NCBI RefSeq assembly: GCF_004342445.1
Contig: NZ_SLWW01000004.1
Span: forward strand, 62,001-126,000
DNA from: Rhodovulum euryhalinum
Lineage (GTDB): Bacteria > Pseudomonadota > Alphaproteobacteria > Rhodobacterales > Rhodobacteraceae
Direction: 5' to 3'
DNA length: 64,000 bases
The position numbers and the translations under genes are program-made. The stretch's first letter is position 1, and every line of letters starts with the position of its first letter. Below are positions 34,817 through 45,096 of the stretch, piece by piece. The notes below the pieces were generated by a model that was given only the letters and a program-made list of their open reading frames with translations, was not told the DNA's origin and did not search any database.

Positions 34817-37251
34817 TTGCGATCCTCGGACGTATCGGGTTTCTGGCCGAACCGGCGCCGGGCCTCGGCAAAGGCGGTCAGCCGCGCCTCGACCCGGCCA
34901 TTCACGCTGTCGGCCGGAAAGGCGCCGTCCGCCCCGCGCGCGCCCGCCGGGCGGCCGGTCAGCAGCGCGATGCCCTCGTCGATGCTGGCGATCGGGATCA
35001 CCCGGAACCGGCCCCCGTCCATCGCCGCGCGCACCCGCGGGCGCAGCACCAGGTGCTTGACGTTCGCCACCGGGATCAGCACGCCCTGCCGCCCGGTCAG
35101 GCCGCGCGCCGCGCAGGTGTCGAAGAAGCCCTCGACCTTCTCGTTCACGCCGCCGATGGCCTGGACGTCGCCGAACTGGTTCACCGATCCGGTGACCGCG
35201 AAGGATTGGTCGATGGGCAGGTCGGCCAGCGCCGAGAGCAGGGCGACCAATTCGGCCGCCGACGCGCTGTCGCCCTCGACCCCGCCATAGCTCTGCTCGA
35301 AGACCACACTCGCCCACAGCGACATCGGCAGGTCCGGGGCGTAGTGCCCGGCCAGGTAGCCCGACAGGATCATCACCCCCTTGGAATGGATCGGCCCGCC
35401 GAGTTCCGCCTCGCGCTCGATGTCGACGAGCTTGCCCGCCCCCATCCGCACCCGCGCGCTGACCCGGGTGGGGCGGCCGAAGCGGGTCTTGCCGATTTCC
35501 AGGACCGACAGCGCGTTGATCTGGCCCACGCGGGCACCTTCGGTGTCGATCAGCAGCGTGGCCCGCGCGATGGCCTCCTGGCCGAGTTCCCGAAGCCGCC
35601 CTGCGCGCCGGTCGGCCGCGGCGACGGCGGTTTCGATATCGTCGCTGCGGATCGCCTCGGCCCCCGCCTTGCCCGCCCAGTGGTCGGCCTCGCGCAGGAT
35701 GTCGCCAAGCGCGGCGAGGTTCAGGGTAAAGCGTTCCGCATCTTCCGACAGCCGCAGGCTTTCGGTCAGCATCCGCGCCACCCCGTCGGCGGCGACCGGC
35801 CGCATGCCGTCCGTCCGCGCCATGGTGCCGATCAGCCGCGCGAAAAGCTGCGCGCTTTCGCCGGTGCGGGGCATCCGGTCGTCGAAATCGGCCTCGAGCT
35901 TGAACAGCCGCCCGAAATCGGGGTCGAGCGCGGCAAGCAGGTAGTAAAGCCGCCGCTCGCCCACCAGCACCACCCGCAGGCGCAGCGGCATCGGATCGGG
36001 GTCGAGCGTTTCGGTCGAGATCAGGCTGAACCGTTCACCCGCCGAATAGATCGTGACCTCGCCGCTTTTCAGGCTGCGCTTGAGGGCGTCCCAGGCCAAT
36101 GGCTCGGTCAGGATCTGCATCGCGTCGAGGATCAGGAACCCGCCATTGGCGCGGTGCAGCGCGCCCGGCCGGATCATCGTGAAATTGGTGACCAGCGCCC
36201 CCTGGTCAGAGCTGTATTCGATCCGCCCGATCAGGTTGGCGAGCGTCGGCAAACCTTCCTCGACGATCGGCGCGCCCGACGCGGTGGCGGGGTCGTGGCT
36301 GACCATCACGTTGACTGCGTAACGCTGGAATTGCGGCTTGAGGTAGTGGCGCGACGTTGCGACGGGGAAGGCGCCGGCCTGCGGGCCGTCCTCGCGGATC
36401 AGGAAGAGTTCCGCGTTGTCGATCATGTCCGCGCGCATCGCCTGCAGGTGGCCGGTGACGGCCGCATGCTCCGCAAACCGCTCCAGCGCCTCGGCAAGCG
36501 CGGCATCCACGCCTTCGCGCGCCATCGAGATGTTCAGTTCCTCGACTTCGCGGCGTTGCGCCTTCATGCCCTTTGGCAGGTCCTTCAGGATATCCTCGAG
36601 ACGGGCGCGCACCTCGTCGATCGCCGCATCCAGCCGGGCACGGTCCGCGGGGGGCAGCTTTTCGTACTCGTCGGGCGGCAGGATTTCCTCGCCCTTCCGC
36701 GGCGCAACCCCAAAGCCCATGGGGGTGCGCACGATGGCCAGGCCGCGCTCGCGCGCCATGTCGGCCAGCGCGCCCATCGCCGTTTCGTGGCGCTCGGAAT
36801 AGGTGTCCTCGATGGCCCGGCGGCGGGTCTGGTAATCCTCGGATTCAAAGATCGCGGGGATGTCGTTGGCAAGGTCGTTGACCACCTTGCGGACCGTATC
36901 GCGCAACTCGACCGCGCGGCCGGGCGGCAGTTCCATGGCCACCGGGCGGCGCGGGTCGTCAAAGCGGTTGACGTAGACACGGTCGGCGGGCAGGGGGCGG
37001 GCGGCGGCGGCCTGCTCCAGAACCTTGCGGGTGGCGCTGTGGCGCCCGGTGCCGGGGGTGCCGAGGACGTAGAGGTTGAAATCGTCGTGCGAGGTTTCGG
37101 CCGCAAGCCGCAGCGCCCCCAGCGCCCTGTCCTGCCCGGGCCAGTCCTCAAGCGGATCAAGCTCGGCGGTGGTCGCAAAGCCGAGGTCGAAGTCCTCCTG
37201 TCCCGCAAGGTCCGCGGGTGCAAGGGGCTGGCCTGTCGCGATCCTGTCCAT
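34813..37251 (-). CDS. Lon-like ATP-dependent protease (AAA_32 + Lon proteolytic domain)
   Basis: 812 residues from the ATG at 37251, preceded by TTGAGG; an ATG five codons upstream has a poorly placed ribosome site. The nucleotide-binding loop is GTPGTGRHS (64-72), with Arg70 where Walker A normally has Lys. The C-terminal Lon domain holds the Ser662/Lys705 dyad (EGDSAS; GGVNEKVEG). The insertion-rich middle (about 170-300) is typical of the LonB/C-like 'AAA_32' family. It probably degrades damaged proteins in the cytoplasm and is cotranscribed with the USP-like gene. Confidence 0.88.
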   Translation of the reverse strand: MDRIATGQPLAPADLAGQEDFDLGFATTAELDPLEDWPGQDRALGALRLAAETSHDDFNLYVLGTPGTGRHSATRKVLEQAAAARPLPADRVYVNRFDDPRRPVAMELPPGRAVELRDTVRKVVNDLANDIPAIFESEDYQTRRRAIEDTYSERHETAMGALADMARERGLAIVRTPMGFGVAPRKGEEILPPDEYEKLPPADRARLDAAIDEVRARLEDILKDLPKGMKAQRREVEELNISMAREGVDAALAEALERFAEHAAVTGHLQAMRADMIDNAELFLIREDGPQAGAFPVATSRHYLKPQFQRYAVNVMVSHDPATASGAPIVEEGLPTLANLIGRIEYSSDQGALVTNFTMIRPGALHRANGGFLILDAMQILTEPLAWDALKRSLKSGEVTIYSAGERFSLISTETLDPDPMPLRLRVVLVGERRLYYLLAALDPDFGRLFKLEADFDDRMPRTGESAQLFARLIGTMARTDGMRPVAADGVARMLTESLRLSEDAERFTLNLAALGDILREADHWAGKAGAEAIRSDDIETAVAAADRRAGRLRELGQEAIARATLLIDTEGARVGQINALSVLEIGKTRFGRPTRVSARVRMGAGKLVDIEREAELGGPIHSKGVMILSGYLAGHYAPDLPMSLWASVVFEQSYGGVEGDSASAAELVALLSALADLPIDQSFAVTGSVNQFGDVQAIGGVNEKVEGFFDTCAARGLTGRQGVLIPVANVKHLVLRPRVRAAMDGGRFRVIPIASIDEGIALLTGRPAGARGADGAFPADSVNGRVEARLTAFAEARRRFGQKPDTSEDRN

Positions 37252-37332
37252 GGGCCTCAATCGCATCCGCCGATGCGACCAGCGAACACGGTTTCGGGCC
37301 GCCGCGCAAGTCCGCCCGGCGCGCCCCCCGCG

Positions 37333-37905
37333 TCAGACGTCGTGCAGCACCACGCGGGCGCCGAGGGGAACCTGCTCGTAGAGGTGGACCACGTGCGAAT
37401 TGGCCATTCGCACGCAGCCGTTCGAGGCACGCCGGCCGATGCTGGCCAGATCCTGGGTGCCGTGGATGCGCAGCATGCTGTCGCCGCCCGCGTTGGTGAA
37501 CAGGTAGATCGCCCGCGCCCCCAACGGGTTGTTCGGGCCGCCCGGCATGCCGTCCTCGTATTGCTTGTAAAGATGCGGCTGGCGCTCGATCATGTCGTCG
37601 GTCGGCCGCCAAGAGGGCCATTCCTTCTTGGCGCCCACGGTGAACACGCCGGGTTCGTACAGCCCGTCCCGGCCGATCGAAACCCGGTAGCGGATTGCGC
37701 GGCCCTTCTTGTTGGGCAGCGTCCAGTAAAGCGCGAATTCGCGCGGCACCACATGGATTTCGGCGGGCTCGACATTCTTGATACGCACCATCCGCGGGGC
37801 AAGCGGGTCCGCCTCTTCTGGATCGGGCGTGGCGGTCCGGGACAGCGCGGGGGCGGCGAACAGGCCGGTTCCGAGGGTGGAGAGCAGGAAAGTTCTGCGT
37901 TTCAT
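37333..37905 (-). CDS. L,D-transpeptidase (YkuD family)
   Basis: 190 residues with an N-terminal signal (MKRRTFLLSTLGTGLFAAPA, Tat-like) for export. Catalytic motif: HGT-x8-SNGCVRM, with the Cys as nucleophile in RRASNGCVRM. These enzymes make 3-3 cross-links or attach proteins to peptidoglycan in the periplasm. Upstream lies a short AT-richer patch that should hold its promoter. Confidence 0.92.
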   Translation of the reverse strand: MKRRTFLLSTLGTGLFAAPALSRTATPDPEEADPLAPRMVRIKNVEPAEIHVVPREFALYWTLPNKKGRAIRYRVSIGRDGLYEPGVFTVGAKKEWPSWRPTDDMIERQPHLYKQYEDGMPGGPNNPLGARAIYLFTNAGGDSMLRIHGTQDLASIGRRASNGCVRMANSHVVHLYEQVPLGARVVLHDV

Positions 37906-38001
37906 TTTCGAAATGCCATTTTGGACAACGTCTTATCCAAGGTTATCCGCAGGATCGCCCCGTGCAAGGGCCAAGGCGGCCCGGTCACGAAGATTCGAAG
38001 C

Positions 38002-38256
38002 TCAACGATCCTCGTTGCGGTCGTGGGGACCGCGTCCGCGCAACCACCGGACGAGGGCCGACAGGTCGAACCAGATCAGCGCAAGGCCAAGCGGGATCAT
38101 CCAGAAGCCCAGGATCGGCAGGAAACCGGCGAACCCGCCCAGCACGAGGCCGAGCCCCGCAAGGCTGCGCCCGCCCGGCGGCAGGGCGGTGCGCGCCCGG
38201 CGGGCGAGATGCGCGACCCGGGCGCGAAGGCCCCTCCTGTCCCGGCCGCCGGTCAT
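38002..38256 (-). CDS. small membrane protein (84 aa)
   Basis: 84 residues: a basic N-terminus, one or two membrane segments within 33-65 (LGLVLGGFAGFLPILGFWMI), and a charged tail. It starts 12 bases after the mtnA stop, so it is probably in the same transcript. Similar short proteins occur in Rhodobacterales; function unknown. Confidence 0.7.
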   Translation of the reverse strand: MTGGRDRRGLRARVAHLARRARTALPPGGRSLAGLGLVLGGFAGFLPILGFWMIPLGLALIWFDLSALVRWLRGRGPHDRNEDR

Positions 38257-38268
38257 CGGGGCATGCGC

Positions 38269-39369
38269 TCAGCCTGCGGCCCGGGCAAGGTCGGGGAACA
38301 GCGCGGCCAGCCCCCCGGCGCTGGCCGGGGCGACGCCGCGCTCGGTGATCAGCCCGGTGACGAGCCGCGCGGGTGTCACGTCGAAGGCGGGGTTGCGCGC
38401 GGGCGTGCCCTGGGGCGAGATCAGCACCTGGCCGATGACGCCGTCGGGCATCCGCCCCTGGACATGGGTCACCTCGGCCTGGGCGCGCTCCTCGATCGGG
38501 ATCTCCTTCACCCCGTCCCACACCGTCCAGTCGATGGTGGGAGAGGGCAGGGCGACATAGAACGGCACGCCGTTGTCATGGGCGGCCAGCGCCTTGAGAT
38601 AGGTGCCGATCTTGTTGCACACGTCGCCCTGCGCGGTGGTGCGGTCGGTGCCGACGATGCACAGGTCCACCTCGCCATGCTGCATCAGGTGGCCGCCCGC
38701 GTTGTCCACGATCAGGTCGTGGCTGACGCCGTGGTTCAGCATCTCCCACGCGGTGAGCTGCGCGCCCTGGTTGCGTGGCCGGGTCTCGTCGACGAAGACA
38801 TGGATGTCGATCCCTTCCTCGACCGCATGATAGATCGGCGAGGTCGCGGTGCCCCAGTCGACGGTGGCCAGCCACCCCGCGTTGCAATGGGTCAGCACGT
38901 TCACGCGCCCGCCGCCCTTGCGCGCGGCGATCTCGCGGATCAGCGCGAGGCCGTTCACCCCGATCCGGCGGTTGATCTCGACATCCTCGTCGCAGATGTC
39001 GGCCGCGCGGCGGAAGGCTGCCTCGGCGCGGGCCTCGGGGGGCAGCGATTTCAGCAGGCGGATCATCTCGTCGAGCGCCCAGCGCAGGTTGATCGCCGTG
39101 GGCCGCGTTTCATGCAGCACCTCGTAGGTTTCCGACAACGACGCGTCCGAGGCATCCTCGGCCATCTGCACCGCCACACCATAGGCCGCGGTCGCCCCGA
39201 TCAGGGGGGCGCCGCGCACCCACATGTCGCGGATCGCGTCGGCGAAGTCCTTTCTGGTGGAGAGACTTACGATTCGAAGTTCATGCGGCAGCCAGCGCTG
39301 GTCGATGATCTTCACGGTGCCGTCGGCCTCGCGCCAGATGGAGCGGTAGTGAGTTCCGTCGATCTTCAT
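38269..39369 (-). CDS. mtnA: S-methyl-5-thioribose-1-phosphate isomerase
   Basis: 366 residues of the eIF2B-like fold; converts methylthioribose-1-phosphate to the ribulose form in methionine salvage. Motifs: [53 protein letters not shown] (Cys region), and [24 protein letters not shown]. Start [10 protein letters not shown] at 39369; a longer frame upstream is not family-like. No other salvage genes are adjacent. Confidence 0.94.
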
Positions 39370-39445
39370 GGGCGTGGGGTTCCTTGTCTGTGCGTTTGCC
39401 GGCTTCTGACCCATCGCGGGGGCGGGGAAAAGGTGGTTCCTCGTC

Positions 39446-40387
39446 TCATGCGGACTCTGCAAGATAGGCAGCGCAGCCCGTCAGTGCCGCGAAATCATCG
39501 GTGATGGTGGCGATCGCAAACGCTTCCATCAGGCCCGAGAACCGGCCCTTGGCGCGAAACGCCCGGTCAAGGCCCAGCCGACCCAGATGCGGGGTCACCG
39601 CGCGGGCAACGCCCCCGATCAGGTAGATGCCGCCATAGGGAAGATGGTGCAGCGCAAGGTCGCCCGCAACCCGGCCGAGCATGGCGGTATAGCACCGCAG
39701 CGCCTCTTCGGCGGCCGGGTCGTCCGGCGCGGCGGCGATGATCGCATGTCCGTCCATCCGCCGCGGCGTGCCCGCCCGCATGGTCACCCAGGCGAACAGC
39801 GCCTCGACGCCGCGGCCGGCCAGGATGTCCTCGACCGCGGCGAACCCGTCGTCGCCGGCGGCGAAGCGGGCCAGCGCAAGGCCGTCCTCGTCGGCCACGG
39901 GCAGGGTGACATGGCCCGCCTCGTTCGCGGTGACCAGCGTGCCCGTGGGCGTGCGGTGAACGACGGTCACGTTGACCCCGGTGCCAAGCCCGATCACCAG
40001 CCGCGTCTCGCCCGCCGCACGCGGGCCGTCGAGTACCGGGACCAGGGCGTCCGGCGCAAGGTGATCGAGTGCGTGACCCTGCGCCTGCAGGTCGTTCAGA
40101 AGCTTCACGCTCTTCGCACCGGTGGCGCGGGCGATCCCGGCCTCGTCGATGGTCCAGTCGAGGTTGGTCAGCCGCCCCCGTCCGGCCCGGACCGGCCCCG
40201 CCAGCGCCGCGCAGGCACCGTCGATCCGGGGGCTGCCCGCCTCGGCAAGGTAGCGGGCGAGCACCTCGGAAAGGTCCGCGAATTCGGCATTGGGATAGCG
40301 CCTGACGCTGCCCGCGACGAGGCGCGGGCCACCGGCCAGCGCGACGCGGGTATTGGTACCGCCGATATCGGCCACAAGTGCGGTCAT
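39446..40387 (-). CDS. glk: glucokinase
   Basis: 313 residues. N-terminal phosphate loop [12 protein letters not shown], then [10 protein letters not shown] and [10 protein letters not shown] typical of bacterial ROK-unrelated Glk. It phosphorylates glucose released in the cytoplasm. The ATG at 40387 is chosen; a GTG at 40399 overlapping the glycosidase stop is possible. Directly behind the GH1 gene, so the two form a sugar-use unit. Confidence 0.9.
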
Positions 40388-40395
40388 GGGCGCGA

Positions 40396-41724
40396 TCACT
40401 GGACAGGTCCTTTCAGCATCCGGGCCAGCGCGTGGTAGGATGCCTTGGGGGTGCGCTGCAAGCTTTCGAAATCGACATGGACAAGGCCGAAGCGTTTCGA
40501 ATAGCCGTACGCCCATTCGAACCCGTCGAGAAGCGACCGGACCACATAGCCCCTCAGCGGCACACCTGCCGCAATGGCGTCTTTCGCGGCCTCGAGATGG
40601 GCCGCCAGATAGGCGATGCGGTCTTCGTCGCGCACCTGGCCTTTCACCACCCGGTCGGGTGCGGCCATGCCGTTCGCGGTAATGTAGAGTGGCAACGCGC
40701 CGGTGAAGGTGTCGGACATCCAGTGCAGCAGCGCGCCCAGTTCGTCGGGTGCGATTTCCCAGCCCGTGTCGGTCTTCGCCAGGGGGCCCGCGACCGCCCG
40801 TTTGCCCGGCCAGGGTCCGGGGGCGGGCGCGACGCGGCGGATCGTGTGATAGTTGACCCCCAGCCAGTCCAGGGGCGCGGCGATGGTGGTCATGTCCTGT
40901 TCCCAGCCCGCGGGCAGGTGCGCCGCCAGCCCTTCGAGCGCGCGGTCGGGATAGCTGCCCCGTGTCATGGCCTGAAGGAAGAACCAGCTGAAGGTCGCCC
41001 CGTGCCGCAGGGTCGCTTCGCGTGCGGCATCGCTGTTTTCTGCGGGAAACCCCGGTTCGAAGTTCAGCACGACACCCGCCTTCGTCGCGCCCGCGGCCCC
41101 GAGCGCGGCCATGCCCAAGCCATGGGCGAGGCCAACATGGTGCATCGCGCGCGCCGTGGCGCGGATGTCGCGCAGGCCCGGTGCGTGCTGGCCCTCGAAA
41201 TGCGACAGCCACGAGACGCTCCAGGGCTCGTTGATCGTGGCCCAGGACCAGACCCGGTCGCCAAGGCGGTGCGCCATCAGTTCAGCGAAACCGGCAAAGC
41301 GTTCGGCCGTGTCGCGGTTCGCCCAGCCGCCCCGGTCGGCCAGCGCCGAGGGCAGGTCCCAGTGATAGAGCGTCAGCATGGGTTTCAGTCCACGGGTCAG
41401 CAGTCCGTCGACCAGCCTGTCGTAGAAATCGAGTCCCTCGGGGTTCACGGTTGCCCCGTCCGGCATGACCCGCGCCCAGGAGGTGGAAAACCGGTACAGG
41501 TCGAACCCCGCTGCCGCCACGAGGTCCAGATCCTCGGCGTGACGGTGAAGGTGGTCACAGGCCATCCGCCCGTCCGCACCGCCCGCCACGTTTCCCGGCG
41601 TCGCGGCAAAGCTGTCCCAGTGGCAGGGCCCTGCGCCGCCTGCGCCGTGCCCCTCGACCTGGTAGGCCGAGCTGGCGGCGCCGAAAAGAAATCCCTTCGG
41701 AAAGTCGTCGCGTGTCAGATCCAT
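40396..41724 (-). CDS. glycoside hydrolase family 1 protein with nucleophile position Ala
   Basis: 442 residues, complete TIM barrel of beta-glucosidase type: GFLFGAASSAYQVEG, YRFSTSWARV, YHWDLPSAL, the acid/base Glu166 in TINEPW and the glycone-binding FEWAYGYSKRFGLV. The nucleophile motif ITENG reads ITANG: residue 350 is Ala (GCG, bases 40675-40677). A single base change from GAG would give this. The protein should not hydrolyse beta-glucosides by the retaining route, unless the read is wrong. Start at 41724 from the family N-terminus; operon with glk. Confidence 0.9.
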   Translation of the reverse strand: MDLTRDDFPKGFLFGAASSAYQVEGHGAGGAGPCHWDSFAATPGNVAGGADGRMACDHLHRHAEDLDLVAAAGFDLYRFSTSWARVMPDGATVNPEGLDFYDRLVDGLLTRGLKPMLTLYHWDLPSALADRGGWANRDTAERFAGFAELMAHRLGDRVWSWATINEPWSVSWLSHFEGQHAPGLRDIRATARAMHHVGLAHGLGMAALGAAGATKAGVVLNFEPGFPAENSDAAREATLRHGATFSWFFLQAMTRGSYPDRALEGLAAHLPAGWEQDMTTIAAPLDWLGVNYHTIRRVAPAPGPWPGKRAVAGPLAKTDTGWEIAPDELGALLHWMSDTFTGALPLYITANGMAAPDRVVKGQVRDEDRIAYLAAHLEAAKDAIAAGVPLRGYVVRSLLDGFEWAYGYSKRFGLVHVDFESLQRTPKASYHALARMLKGPVQ

Positions 41725-42087
41725 GGTCGAAGCGTCGTGCCGTGGGCGCCGTGCGTCAAGCTCAGGATTGTACGGCCGGGGCGCCGCTAGCGCTTTGGTT
41801 GATCGCTCCGGAGGCGCGGGCCACCATTGCAGAGCCGAAGGGGACGGCGACATTGGCCACAAGGTGGCTGTCGGCATCCGCCCCGAGGACATGAGCGCGA
41901 CCGGGACGGCCGGGTTCGCCCGTCAGGGCCCGGTCGAGGTCGCCGGGGCGCTGGGTGAGGCGGCCCAGCGTTGCTGCGGGGGCGCAGCTTGCGGATGACC
42001 GCCGATCCGACAAGGGGGCATCTTTTCCCATGGGCCGTTCGCTTCGGTGGCGTTAGGCTGGGCGCTGCGGATCGAAGGAGAGCGGAG
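41725..42087. other. intergenic region with an ABC-ATPase relic
   Basis: 363 bases between the GH1 gene and the lipoprotein gene, divergently oriented. It must hold the promoter of the glk operon on the left and of the lipoprotein on the right (Shine-Dalgarno AAGGAG at 42075). The middle carries decayed coding sequence described at 41800-41998. Confidence 0.5.
41800..41998 (+). pseudogene. relic of a sugar ABC transporter ATPase C-terminus (TOBE region)
   Basis: From 41855 the frame reads GHKVAVGIRPEDMSATGTAG and then VEVAGALGEAAQ, matching the 'V.LGIRPED......V..VE.LGE' pattern of MalK/UgpC-type ATPases. Upstream coding sequence is lost and the frame ends at 41998. Glucoside ABC transporters often neighbour glk and GH genes, which supports a lost importer. 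Confidence 0.45.
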
Positions 42088-42627
42088 ATGATCGGAAGAC
42101 GCGGCAGGAGCCTTGCCGTTCTGGCGATGGCGGCGGCGCTGGGGGCCTGTGTCGAGGCACGGGGGCCCACGGGGCCGGTGCCTGCGGCGATCGCGCCGGT
42201 GCCTGCGAGAAGCATCCATGCCGGTGCGGTGGGGTCGGTGGTGGTGCCGGGCGGCGGTGGGGCGATTCCGCCCTGGGCGGGCGAGCTGTCGGATGGCGGT
42301 TTCCGCGCGGCGCTGGAGACCTCGCTGCGGCAGGCGGGCATCCTTGTGCCGGGCGGCGGGCAGACACTGGAGGCCGTGGTGATGGATGTGGCCGAGGCGC
42401 CGAGCGAGCCCTCGACGACAAAGGTCGTGCTGAACGTGCAGTACCGGCTGCGCGACGGGGCGGGCCGGTCGGTGCGCGATCTCAGGGTGAGTTCGGGCTA
42501 TACGGCGACGCTGGCCCAGGCGGTGCAGGGGATCGACCGGCTGCGCGTGGCCCGCGAGGGGGCGATCCGCCAGAATATCGCCGTCCTGCTGCGCGAGCTT
42601 GGCAGCACCAGCGCGGGCTCCCTCTGA
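42088..42627 (+). CDS. hypothetical lipoprotein
   Basis: 179 residues with a lipoprotein signal: basic start MIGRRGRSL, hydrophobic core and lipobox LGAC with Cys21. The mature part has repeating beta-like strands (TLEAVVMDVAEAPSEPSTTK, VVLNVQYRLRD). Strong AAGGAGAG before the ATG. Family not recognised; location is the periplasmic face of the inner or outer membrane. Confidence 0.75.
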   Translation: MIGRRGRSLAVLAMAAALGACVEARGPTGPVPAAIAPVPARSIHAGAVGSVVVPGGGGAIPPWAGELSDGGFRAALETSLRQAGILVPGGGQTLEAVVMDVAEAPSEPSTTKVVLNVQYRLRDGAGRSVRDLRVSSGYTATLAQAVQGIDRLRVAREGAIRQNIAVLLRELGSTSAGSL

Positions 42628-43686: not shown

Positions 43687-45096
43687 GTGAACGAACAGGG
43701 CCATATCGGGACGAACCTCGCGATCTGGGGCGTGGTGACGGCAAGCGCGGTGGCGTCGCTGCTGGCCTTCGGTCCGCATTGGGCGGTCTGGGCGGCGTCA
43801 CTTGCGGCCTTTGCGCTCTGGCTCTTCGCGATCCTCGGTCTGTCGGACGGGCCGAGCCGGGCGTTTCTCGCAGGCACGCTGAAAAAGTCGAGCTACACCC
43901 AGATCTACACCACGCTGACCCGGCGCAACGTGATGTGGGTCTGGCGGCGGCTTTGTGACGAGGCCAGCGACCGCGACGGCTGGCCCACGCTGTTCCGCGC
44001 CGCGCTGACCTGGCGGCTTTATGACAAGGCTTTGCTGATCGCGGTGGCCTATCCGGTGCTGTTGCTGGTGGGCCAATGGATCGTGACCGGGGCCGAGGGA
44101 CGCGTGGGCAGCTTCGTGGTGCTGCCCGCGGCCCCGTTCTGGCCGGACCGTGCGGCCACGCTTGTCGTTTTCGGCATCTTGATCCTTGGCTTCGTCGCCC
44201 GGACACTGGCGGCAGCCAGTCGGCATCGTGTCGTGCGACAGGCTGCCGACTGGCTGCTGATTCTCGCATTCGCAGCCGCATTCGCATTCGCAGTCGCATT
44301 CGCAGCCGCATTCGCAGTCGCAGTCGCAGTCGCAGGCGCAGTCGGATTCGCAGTCGCAGTCGCAGCCTTAGCCGCCGTCGAGTGGCTCGACTTGCGCGGC
44401 AAGCCGATATTGGCGCGATGGTTGGTGACGGGAGCGGTCGTGCTGTCGGTGGTCTTGCTGGCGCGTGTTCTTGATTGGTCCGCCGTCCCCGAGGACCGCC
44501 GCAGCCTGTTCCTGTTCCTCGCCGTCTTCCCCCTGATCAACGCCCTGTTCGATGTCCTGTCCTACGCCGTCACCCTGTCGCTCCTGCGCCGGGGGCTGCG
44601 GTCGGGCCTGCCTTTCCTCTGGGGCCTTCTCGACCTTGCGATCGCCTGCGTCCTGTTCCTTGCCCTCGGCGTCACGCTGGTCGCCGCGATCGACGGGCTG
44701 AACCGTCTGGCCGGTGTGCCGCTGCTCGATCTCGGCGCGCTGTTCGCAGGGATCAGGGAAACGCCCGGTGCCCATGTCTGGCTCTACCTGATGCTGTTCT
44801 CGACCATCGTTCCCACGGCACTGCATTTCCTGGTCAGCCTGCTGGGCCTGCAGGGCGTCTGGCCACGCGCGCTTCGCCGTCCCGTCGCCGTCCTGATCGA
44901 CCGCGCACCGGACAGCCCGCTTGAGGCTGTCCGCGCGGCCCTGGCACTCGGGCTGATCTGGGCGATCCCGCTGATCCTGCTGGGCGCGGCGCTTTGGGGT
45001 CTGTGGGCCCTGGGCGGCGGGATGGTCAGCACCGCCCTCGCGCGGTACTTCGATGTGCTGCTGTGGATCGCCGCCGAGCCGCTGGCCGCCTTCTGA
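43687..45096 (+). CDS. polytopic membrane protein with hexanucleotide-repeat helix
   Basis: 469 residues from a GTG at 43687 (weak GAGGCGGG before it; the frame is open upstream to 43378 across relic sequence). About ten hydrophobic segments surround a soluble part at 55-100 (TLKKSSYTQIYTTLTRRNVM, WVWRRLCDEASDRDGWPTLF). Residues 194-227 are an (Ala-X)17 helix coded by 17 hexanucleotide units, X mostly Phe or Val. I do not recognise the family. It lies in a patchy region between a broken TRAP gene and a secreted protein. Confidence 0.72.
   Translation: MNEQGHIGTNLAIWGVVTASAVASLLAFGPHWAVWAASLAAFALWLFAILGLSDGPSRAFLAGTLKKSSYTQIYTTLTRRNVMWVWRRLCDEASDRDGWPTLFRAALTWRLYDKALLIAVAYPVLLLVGQWIVTGAEGRVGSFVVLPAAPFWPDRAATLVVFGILILGFVARTLAAASRHRVVRQAADWLLILAFAAAFAFAVAFAAAFAVAVAVAGAVGFAVAVAALAAVEWLDLRGKPILARWLVTGAVVLSVVLLARVLDWSAVPEDRRSLFLFLAVFPLINALFDVLSYAVTLSLLRRGLRSGLPFLWGLLDLAIACVLFLALGVTLVAAIDGLNRLAGVPLLDLGALFAGIRETPGAHVWLYLMLFSTIVPTALHFLVSLLGLQGVWPRALRRPVAVLIDRAPDSPLEAVRAALALGLIWAIPLILLGAALWGLWALGGGMVSTALARYFDVLLWIAAEPLAAF
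44266..44367 (+). repeat. coding hexanucleotide repeat (17 units of GCA-NNC type)
   Basis: Seventeen 6-base units in register with the reading frame: GCATTC, GCAGTC and GCAGCC, with one GCAGGC and one GGATTC. Each unit codes Ala plus Phe, Val, Ala or Gly. GCA is used for Ala in nearly every unit although GCC and GCG dominate elsewhere in the window, indicating growth by slippage rather than codon selection. Confidence 0.92.

Follow-up and report, generated by a model that had tools for sequence, protein, structure and literature searches.

A GH1 protein gene without the catalytic nucleophile codon upstream of glk in Rhodovulum euryhalinum

Introduction

What has become of a family 1 glycoside hydrolase (GH1) whose reading frame is open from end to end and in which the catalytic nucleophile, a glutamate, is an alanine? 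This question is raised by a gene of Rhodovulum euryhalinum that lies in a stretch of 64,000 nucleotides (contig NZ_SLWW01000004.1, positions 62,001 to 126,000 of the forward strand), which is called the window below. GH1 glycosynthases are nucleophile mutants, and the window gene contains a natural version of the nucleophile-to-alanine change that is known from engineered enzymes. A sequence-only reading of the window had offered three options for the protein, namely a sugar-binding protein, a transglycosidase using another donor, or a recent inactivation.

Results

A full-length GH1 protein with alanine at the nucleophile position

The gene is encoded on the minus strand (40396..41724), starts with an ATG at 41724, from which all residue numbers of the window protein are counted, and specifies 442 amino acids. 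PF00232 spans residues 7-435 in a profile search (E value 1.1e-128), and this full-length match, together with the GH1 barrel retrieved in a fold search, places the protein in the GH1 sequence family. The AlphaFold model has a mean pLDDT of 93.7 and a pTM of 0.93. Its top fold matches are GH1 beta-glucosidases, and one of them, 5idi, is an engineered E349A mutant according to its title; E349 of this protein (T. neapolitana beta-glucosidase 1A) is taken by us to be the nucleophile. The occurrence of the engineered structure among the matches indicates that the GH1 fold tolerates a Glu-to-Ala change of this sort.

Codon 350 (40675..40677, minus strand) is GCG, and the motif in which retaining GH1 enzymes have Glu, (I/V)TENG, reads Y-I-T-A-N-G in the window protein. 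In contrast, the acid/base Glu166 of the NEP motif (41227..41229, minus strand) is present as in retaining enzymes. The frame runs uninterrupted through 442 codons and ends at glk, and thus does not show the interruption expected of a pseudogene. The statements of the sequence-only reading that the nucleophile is replaced at this codon by alanine, that the acid/base residue is intact, and that the gene is uninterrupted were therefore borne out. Judged from these residues, the protein would be catalytically incompetent and probably has no glycosidase activity.

Orthologues and more distant homologues were compared at the same positions. The first source of rows was a set of 61 related genomes, of which 24 had a match (fragments were disregarded); the second was a set of 80 loci in named genomes, which were the best 80 of 224 relatives; and the third consisted of 210 genomes of the family. 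For the last group, 394 genomes were scanned and 212 had a match, of which G153 and G361 were too fragmented to be scored. Also left unscored were the fragments L023, L024 and L026-L030, L391, and any second match that had no locus. Duplicates were removed before counting (e.g. L150 and L180, which equal L073, and L153, which equals the window), and five partial rows that give rise to gaps were kept (L139, L222, L223, L225 and L226). This resulted in 265 distinct rows at first, and in 294 after 29 had been added. At position 350, Glu was found in 290 of the 294 rows and a gap in three; the window is the only row with Ala. Position 166 is Glu in 293 rows and Ala in one, the protein of Phaeovulum vinaykumarii.

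Further replacements in the active site

The assumption of an otherwise intact active site did not hold, because the window protein has Arg instead of Trp396, His instead of Tyr293 and Gly instead of Asn401. At codon 396 (CGG; 40537..40539, minus strand), Arg replaces a Trp of the -1 subsite that is found in 289 of 294 rows (three gaps; Arg in the window and P. vinaykumarii). Codon 293 (CAC; 40846..40848, minus strand) specifies His instead of the second Tyr of the N-Y-Y motif, which is present in 291 rows (one gap; His in the same two). Presumably, this Tyr is a neighbour of the nucleophile in GH1 structures. At codon 401 (GGG; 40522..40524, minus strand), Gly replaces the Asn of the LLDN(F/Y)EW motif (Asn in 287 rows, three gaps, Asp in two, Gly in two). 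Compared with AAT in G005, G002 and G011, codon 401 of the window differs in all three bases, whereas Arg396 and His293 are one-step T-to-C changes. The base changes at codons 246, 293, 350 and 396 all raised the G+C content. Gln22, His121, Asn165, Glu166, Glu403 and Trp404 are intact. At positions that are invariant in 20 orthologues, the window protein has the changes T18S, C169S, R209G, D242G, N246S, Y293H, E350A, W396R and N401G.

By motif, we take position 396 to be equivalent to W425 of the S. solfataricus beta-glycosidase. W425 is among eight ligand contacts of GH1 enzymes which, according to section 3.1 of PMC6522968, are conserved in more than 5,000 GH1 members with the exception of the variable W151 and E432. 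The window protein thus lacks not only the nucleophile but also the -1 subsite Trp of retaining GH1 enzymes. It also differs from a glycosynthase-like protein, which would combine a small residue at the nucleophile position with an otherwise intact -1 subsite: Ala350 fits this description, but Trp396Arg and Tyr293His do not.

Loss of the divergent operon and stages of loss in relatives

In all nine congeneric genomes with an intact GH1 gene, orthologues of a permease (at least 85% identity to G005) and of a GH13 protein (at least 77%) were present, and, within the limits of the fetched stretch, the divergent operon adjoins GH1 in each of them. The permease, the GH13 protein (alpha-amylase family) and the ATPase were identified with Pfam in G005. 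In the seven remaining genomes, including the window, the GH13 orthologue is missing in every case (a scrap is left in G013), and an intact permease is missing in six (G012 has one, G013 has scraps). The GH13 gene of G002 (G002:C6:66268-67883) matches as two overlapping pieces, which may be due to an assembly error or to early decay; the respective record, L046, is a MAG.

In the window, the divergent ABC sugar transporter/GH13 operon is missing, apart from a scrap of the ATPase gene at 41849-42027 that is distributed over two frames. One piece (41849..41968, plus strand) corresponds to the C-terminal residues 276-315 of the G005 ATPase with 55% identity, and the other (41974..42027, plus strand) corresponds to residues 339-356 in the other frame; jointly, the two gave an E value of 1.2e-9. 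A relocation of the transporter was rejected, as the permease and the GH13 protein have only paralogues in the genome (G000), none of them above 31% identity. The region between the scrap and GH1 (41725..41848, minus strand) appears to have been retained and would be a probable promoter/operator. A local alignment of the 176 bases upstream of GH1 scored higher than all 200 shuffles against G005, G002 and G003, while the scores for the other six of the nine relatives did not exceed those of their own shuffles. Because of the resemblance to the intergenic region of these three relatives, the promoter region of GH1 and glk may still be present. A promoter pattern scan of 41600-42300 found none, and a search of the whole window with Rfam at gathering scores did not yield a match.

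The relatives without the full operon exhibit various degrees of GH1 loss. In G013 (L041:7150-7872), two in-frame deletions cut GH1 to about 242 aligned codons and removed both catalytic glutamates, and the frame still reaches an ATGA overlap with glk; the transporter is in scraps. In G012 (L199:3400-4760), about 20 leftover GH1 codons directly precede glk, and the remnant is accompanied by a LacI-type regulator (assigned by eye), a binding protein and permeases. G006, G007 and G008 kept glk, and in these three genomes no match to GH1, and no match to the transporter beyond chance at the locus, was found. In G009, neither GH1 nor glk was found. A tree of MtnA and Glk groups the window with G006-G008 as sisters with moderate support (85/88). 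As expected for a decaying gene, the pathway partners have thus been lost, and the gene itself has been lost in relatives. Within the congeneric set, the locus is found intact, with a full-length but dead enzyme, with a gene shortened by in-frame deletion, with no more than a tail of it, and without any GH1 gene.

The junction of GH1 and glk

The next gene after GH1 on the same strand is glk, encoding glucokinase (39446..40399, minus strand; PF02685). The sequence-only reading had described GH1 as coupled to glk. The two genes are adjacent, and the TGA stop codon of GH1 overlaps a possible GTG start codon of glk (GTGA, 40396-40399). However, the start position that is conserved in relatives corresponds to the ATG at 40387 in the window, 8 bases past the GH1 stop, so that this description is only partly upheld. 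The junction was read in nine other congeners, and in all nine the stop codon of GH1 shares bases with the start codon of glk (ATGA or GTGA); this set comprised genomes with a full GH1 gene (G001, G004, G005, G010, G011, G014 and G015) and genomes with a remnant (G012 and G013). The junctions of G002, G003 and G006-G008 are outside this set, and glk of G003 is on another contig than GH1. In Phaeovulum, about 50 bases separate GH1 and glk. Of 16 congeneric genomes overall, 15 have retained glk. The positions of the two genes make translational coupling likely in this genus, albeit not universal. A search of the literature on coupling found no paper.

Elsewhere in the window, a hexameric tandem repeat with 17 copies of a TCGCAG-like unit (44264-44367) encodes an Ala/Phe/Val-rich run within a frame whose product resembles a membrane protein. 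A frame of 1483 amino acids (35053-39504, plus strand) is antisense to frames that, by eye, are lon-like, LD-transpeptidase-like and mtnA; it is most likely an artefact of the high G+C content.

A parallel in Phaeovulum vinaykumarii

The GH1 protein of P. vinaykumarii DSM 18714 (NZ_FTOM01000003.1, L073:5968-7317) has Ala instead of Glu166 and Gly instead of Trp122, and it also has His293, Arg396 and Gly401. These two proteins are the only ones of the 294 rows with His, Arg and Gly at the three positions, and each of them has lost a different catalytic Glu. Outside the family, the combination was looked for among the best 80 of 224 relatives and in the 61 genomes. As in the window, the GH1 gene with the three replacements and with one catalytic Glu changed to Ala is followed by glk. 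In contrast to the window, the Phaeovulum protein lost the acid/base Glu and Trp122 and kept the nucleophile, and the divergent ABC transporter has been kept, with no GH13 gene in the position that it occupies in relatives.

In a quick tree of 41 rows, the open frame of P. vinaykumarii is on a very long branch of uncertain place, and the window groups in a fork with an SH-aLRT of 92 that comprises nine Rhodovulum rows. A shared origin of the two proteins was not seen in this tree; a hidden common origin is possible. Near-invariant sites that are changed in both proteins number five (P 0.002, or 0.006 when the 104 sites conserved at 95% are used), and three of these five carry the identical residue in both (265 rows). 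When neutral evolution was simulated, the probability of at least three identical changes was about 9e-5 for t 0.052, 0.003 for t 0.2, and 0.05 for t 0.8. The parallel changes may reflect either a drift of freed active-site positions along easy mutational paths, in a protein for which folding is still required, or selection for a new pocket.

Tests of selection and neutrality

All codon models were run with our own code, and the tests were chosen after the data had been seen. The omega of the window branch was ordinary (0.12 versus 0.13), and omega = 1 was rejected (2dl 67). However, omega was also low (0.17) for the broken gene of G013, for which omega = 1 was rejected as well; synonymous sites are near saturation. 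Because even a plainly broken gene yields such a value, branch omega cannot separate decay from retention and was rejected as evidence of function. Relative-rate tests were mixed and depended on the outgroup (50 v 31 with G002, 39 v 38 with G015). Dating the transporter deletion by means of the ATPase scrap was also rejected, since the interval around t2 of about 0.18 was too wide (0 to beyond 0.4).

More informative was a site-class codon model with a terminal neutral segment, which was better than a model with none for the window (t2 0.04, 2dl 7.4). The respective values were 0.37 (2dl 52.7) for G013 and 0.066 (2.5) for Phaeovulum, and the controls gave 0.003 (2dl 0.05) for G003, 0.021 (2.8) for G005, and 0.006 (0.4) for G027. 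With Rhodovulum alone, the neutral-segment model resulted in a t2 of 0.052 for the window (2dl 4.95) and of 0.001-0.010 for four controls. When Phaeovulum and G013 were included in a joint tree, t2 was 0 for the window and nil for Phaeovulum and five controls, and 0.34 (2dl 44) for G013. When 12 active-site positions were removed, the t2 of the window decreased to a non-significant 0.02 (a drop of 1.4 lnL at zero), and the signal of Phaeovulum was also non-significant. Any relaxation of the window GH1 gene is thus slight and mostly located at the active site.

At 74 sites that are conserved in at least 98% of the 265 rows, the median row has no difference, the window has 7, a distant paralogue (L022) has 9, and Phaeovulum has 14. 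Three of 11 active-site positions are hit in the window, with P values of 0.0005-0.03 for t2 of 0.02-0.09. Without position 350, by which the case had been chosen, P was 0.009-0.13; with position 350 at a t2 of 0.18, P was 0.16. Against the background of near-invariant sites, the excess had a P of 0.06 for the window and of 0.12 for Phaeovulum.

Discussion

We consider it probable that the GH1 protein was catalytically inactivated during a stepwise loss of the glucoside locus, and that its frame was perhaps held open by the tight junction with glk. A glucoside-utilisation locus would be under dismantling: once substrate import had been lost, the GH1 enzyme would no longer have been needed, and its active site would have degenerated. 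The frame may still be open because the loss was recent on this branch and because the retained glk starts at, or at most 8 bases from, the GH1 stop. With the ribosome-binding region of glk inside the 3' end of GH1, stop codons and frameshifts in GH1 would also harm glk, which could explain why the frame is kept open. This history is favoured because it explains why the operon is missing, why the nucleophile was lost and the subsite damaged, and why relatives display different stages. Some results do not sit easily with it, however. Outside the 12 active-site positions, the neutral signal was non-significant, and it was zero in the joint tree. The three-base change at codon 401 fits poorly into a short neutral period. 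The ATPase scrap may have been neutral for longer, although its interval is wide. The junction is not universal, as G003 and Phaeovulum demonstrate, the relative-rate tests were mixed, and a distant paralogue exceeds the window in changes at near-invariant sites. Furthermore, the Phaeovulum protein, which was inactivated independently, has three of the same replacements.

The main rival explanation is that the protein has been retained as a pseudoenzyme, be it as a binder of glucosides or anionic sugars or as a regulator of glucokinase, with a pocket of His293, Arg396 and Gly401 that also arose in parallel in Phaeovulum. The identical replacements are confined to the two rows that have lost a catalytic Glu, not the same one; in both cases the frame is uninterrupted and glk is adjacent; neither protein shows significant relaxation beyond its active site; and the hits are enriched in the active site of a confidently predicted model. 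But the enrichment fades when position 350 is left out or when near-invariant sites serve as the background, Arg and His are one-step changes that raise G+C, and congeners without the full operon discarded or cut GH1. We therefore regard retention as a pseudoenzyme as doubtful. The more specific proposal that two lineages of purple bacteria independently made the GH1 protein of a glucoside locus non-catalytic, arrived at the same remodelled pocket, perhaps for anionic sugars, and thereby produced a bacterial counterpart of Klotho that acts on glucokinase, appears to us rather unlikely. Of the three options of the sequence-only reading, a transglycosidase or a glycosynthase is the least probable, because the nucleophile was not lost alone but along with the Trp of the -1 subsite and the conserved N-Y-Y Tyr; inactivation is the best supported, and a binding protein is possible. 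A natural transferase or phosphorylase would have to accept phosphate or an alpha-configured donor where the nucleophile has left room, with Arg396 and His293 holding it and Glu166 helping as acid/base. It is true that GH1 glycosynthase mutants are widely used (PMC6522968), that the structure of a GH1 E349A mutant exists, and that Gln22, His121, Asn165, Glu166, Glu403 and Trp404 are intact. However, Trp396 and Tyr293 are lost, the transporter is gone, and the window and Phaeovulum cannot share such a chemistry, because Phaeovulum has the same three replacements and lost the acid/base instead; a transferase is thus highly improbable. GCG of the window and GAG of G005 are separated by a single base, which a sequencing or assembly error could produce. 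Yet the frame is clean, and three further active-site changes, one of them a three-base codon change, and a matching operon deletion all agree, so that an error at codon 350 is very unlikely indeed. A mutation private to the strain is possible.

Inactivation during the loss of the locus would make this region a worked example of how an operon with one kept gene, glk, is dismantled with an unbroken reading frame. It is also a warning that profile-based annotation labels a dead protein a beta-glucosidase. Should the parallels with Phaeovulum reflect selection, the protein would be a GH1 pseudoenzyme from a bacterium, and its new pocket could be tested. Among the papers listed for GH1 pseudoenzymes or a missing catalytic Glu, glycosynthases, the agl locus, and Rhodovulum and Phaeovulum, the titles and abstract openings contained no bacterial GH1 protein with a natural alanine nucleophile.

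Among known systems, the window protein is most readily compared with the retaining GH1 beta-glucosidases (PF00232), such as that of Thermotoga maritima (PDB 1od0/1uz1), with which it shares the fold (TM 0.94-0.95), 41-42% sequence identity, the acid/base Glu and, in the -1 subsite, Gln, His, Asn and Glu-Trp. In contrast to these enzymes, it has no nucleophile Glu, and other residues take the place of the Trp of the -1 subsite and the Tyr of N-Y-Y. It resembles engineered mutants and glycosynthases, such as E349A of T. neapolitana beta-glucosidase 1A (PDB 5idi), in having Ala instead of Glu in an intact GH1 fold, but here the change is natural and accompanied by further losses in the -1 subsite. 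A precedent for a pseudoenzyme among GH1-like proteins is Klotho, whose GH1-like domains lack a catalytic Glu and, according to two articles (PMC8204227, PMC7828330), are thought to bind sugars or sugar-mimicking motifs. The window protein and the animal Klotho pseudoglycosidases are both GH1-like and without a catalytic Glu, whereas the window protein is bacterial, has a single domain, and has no known ligand or partner.
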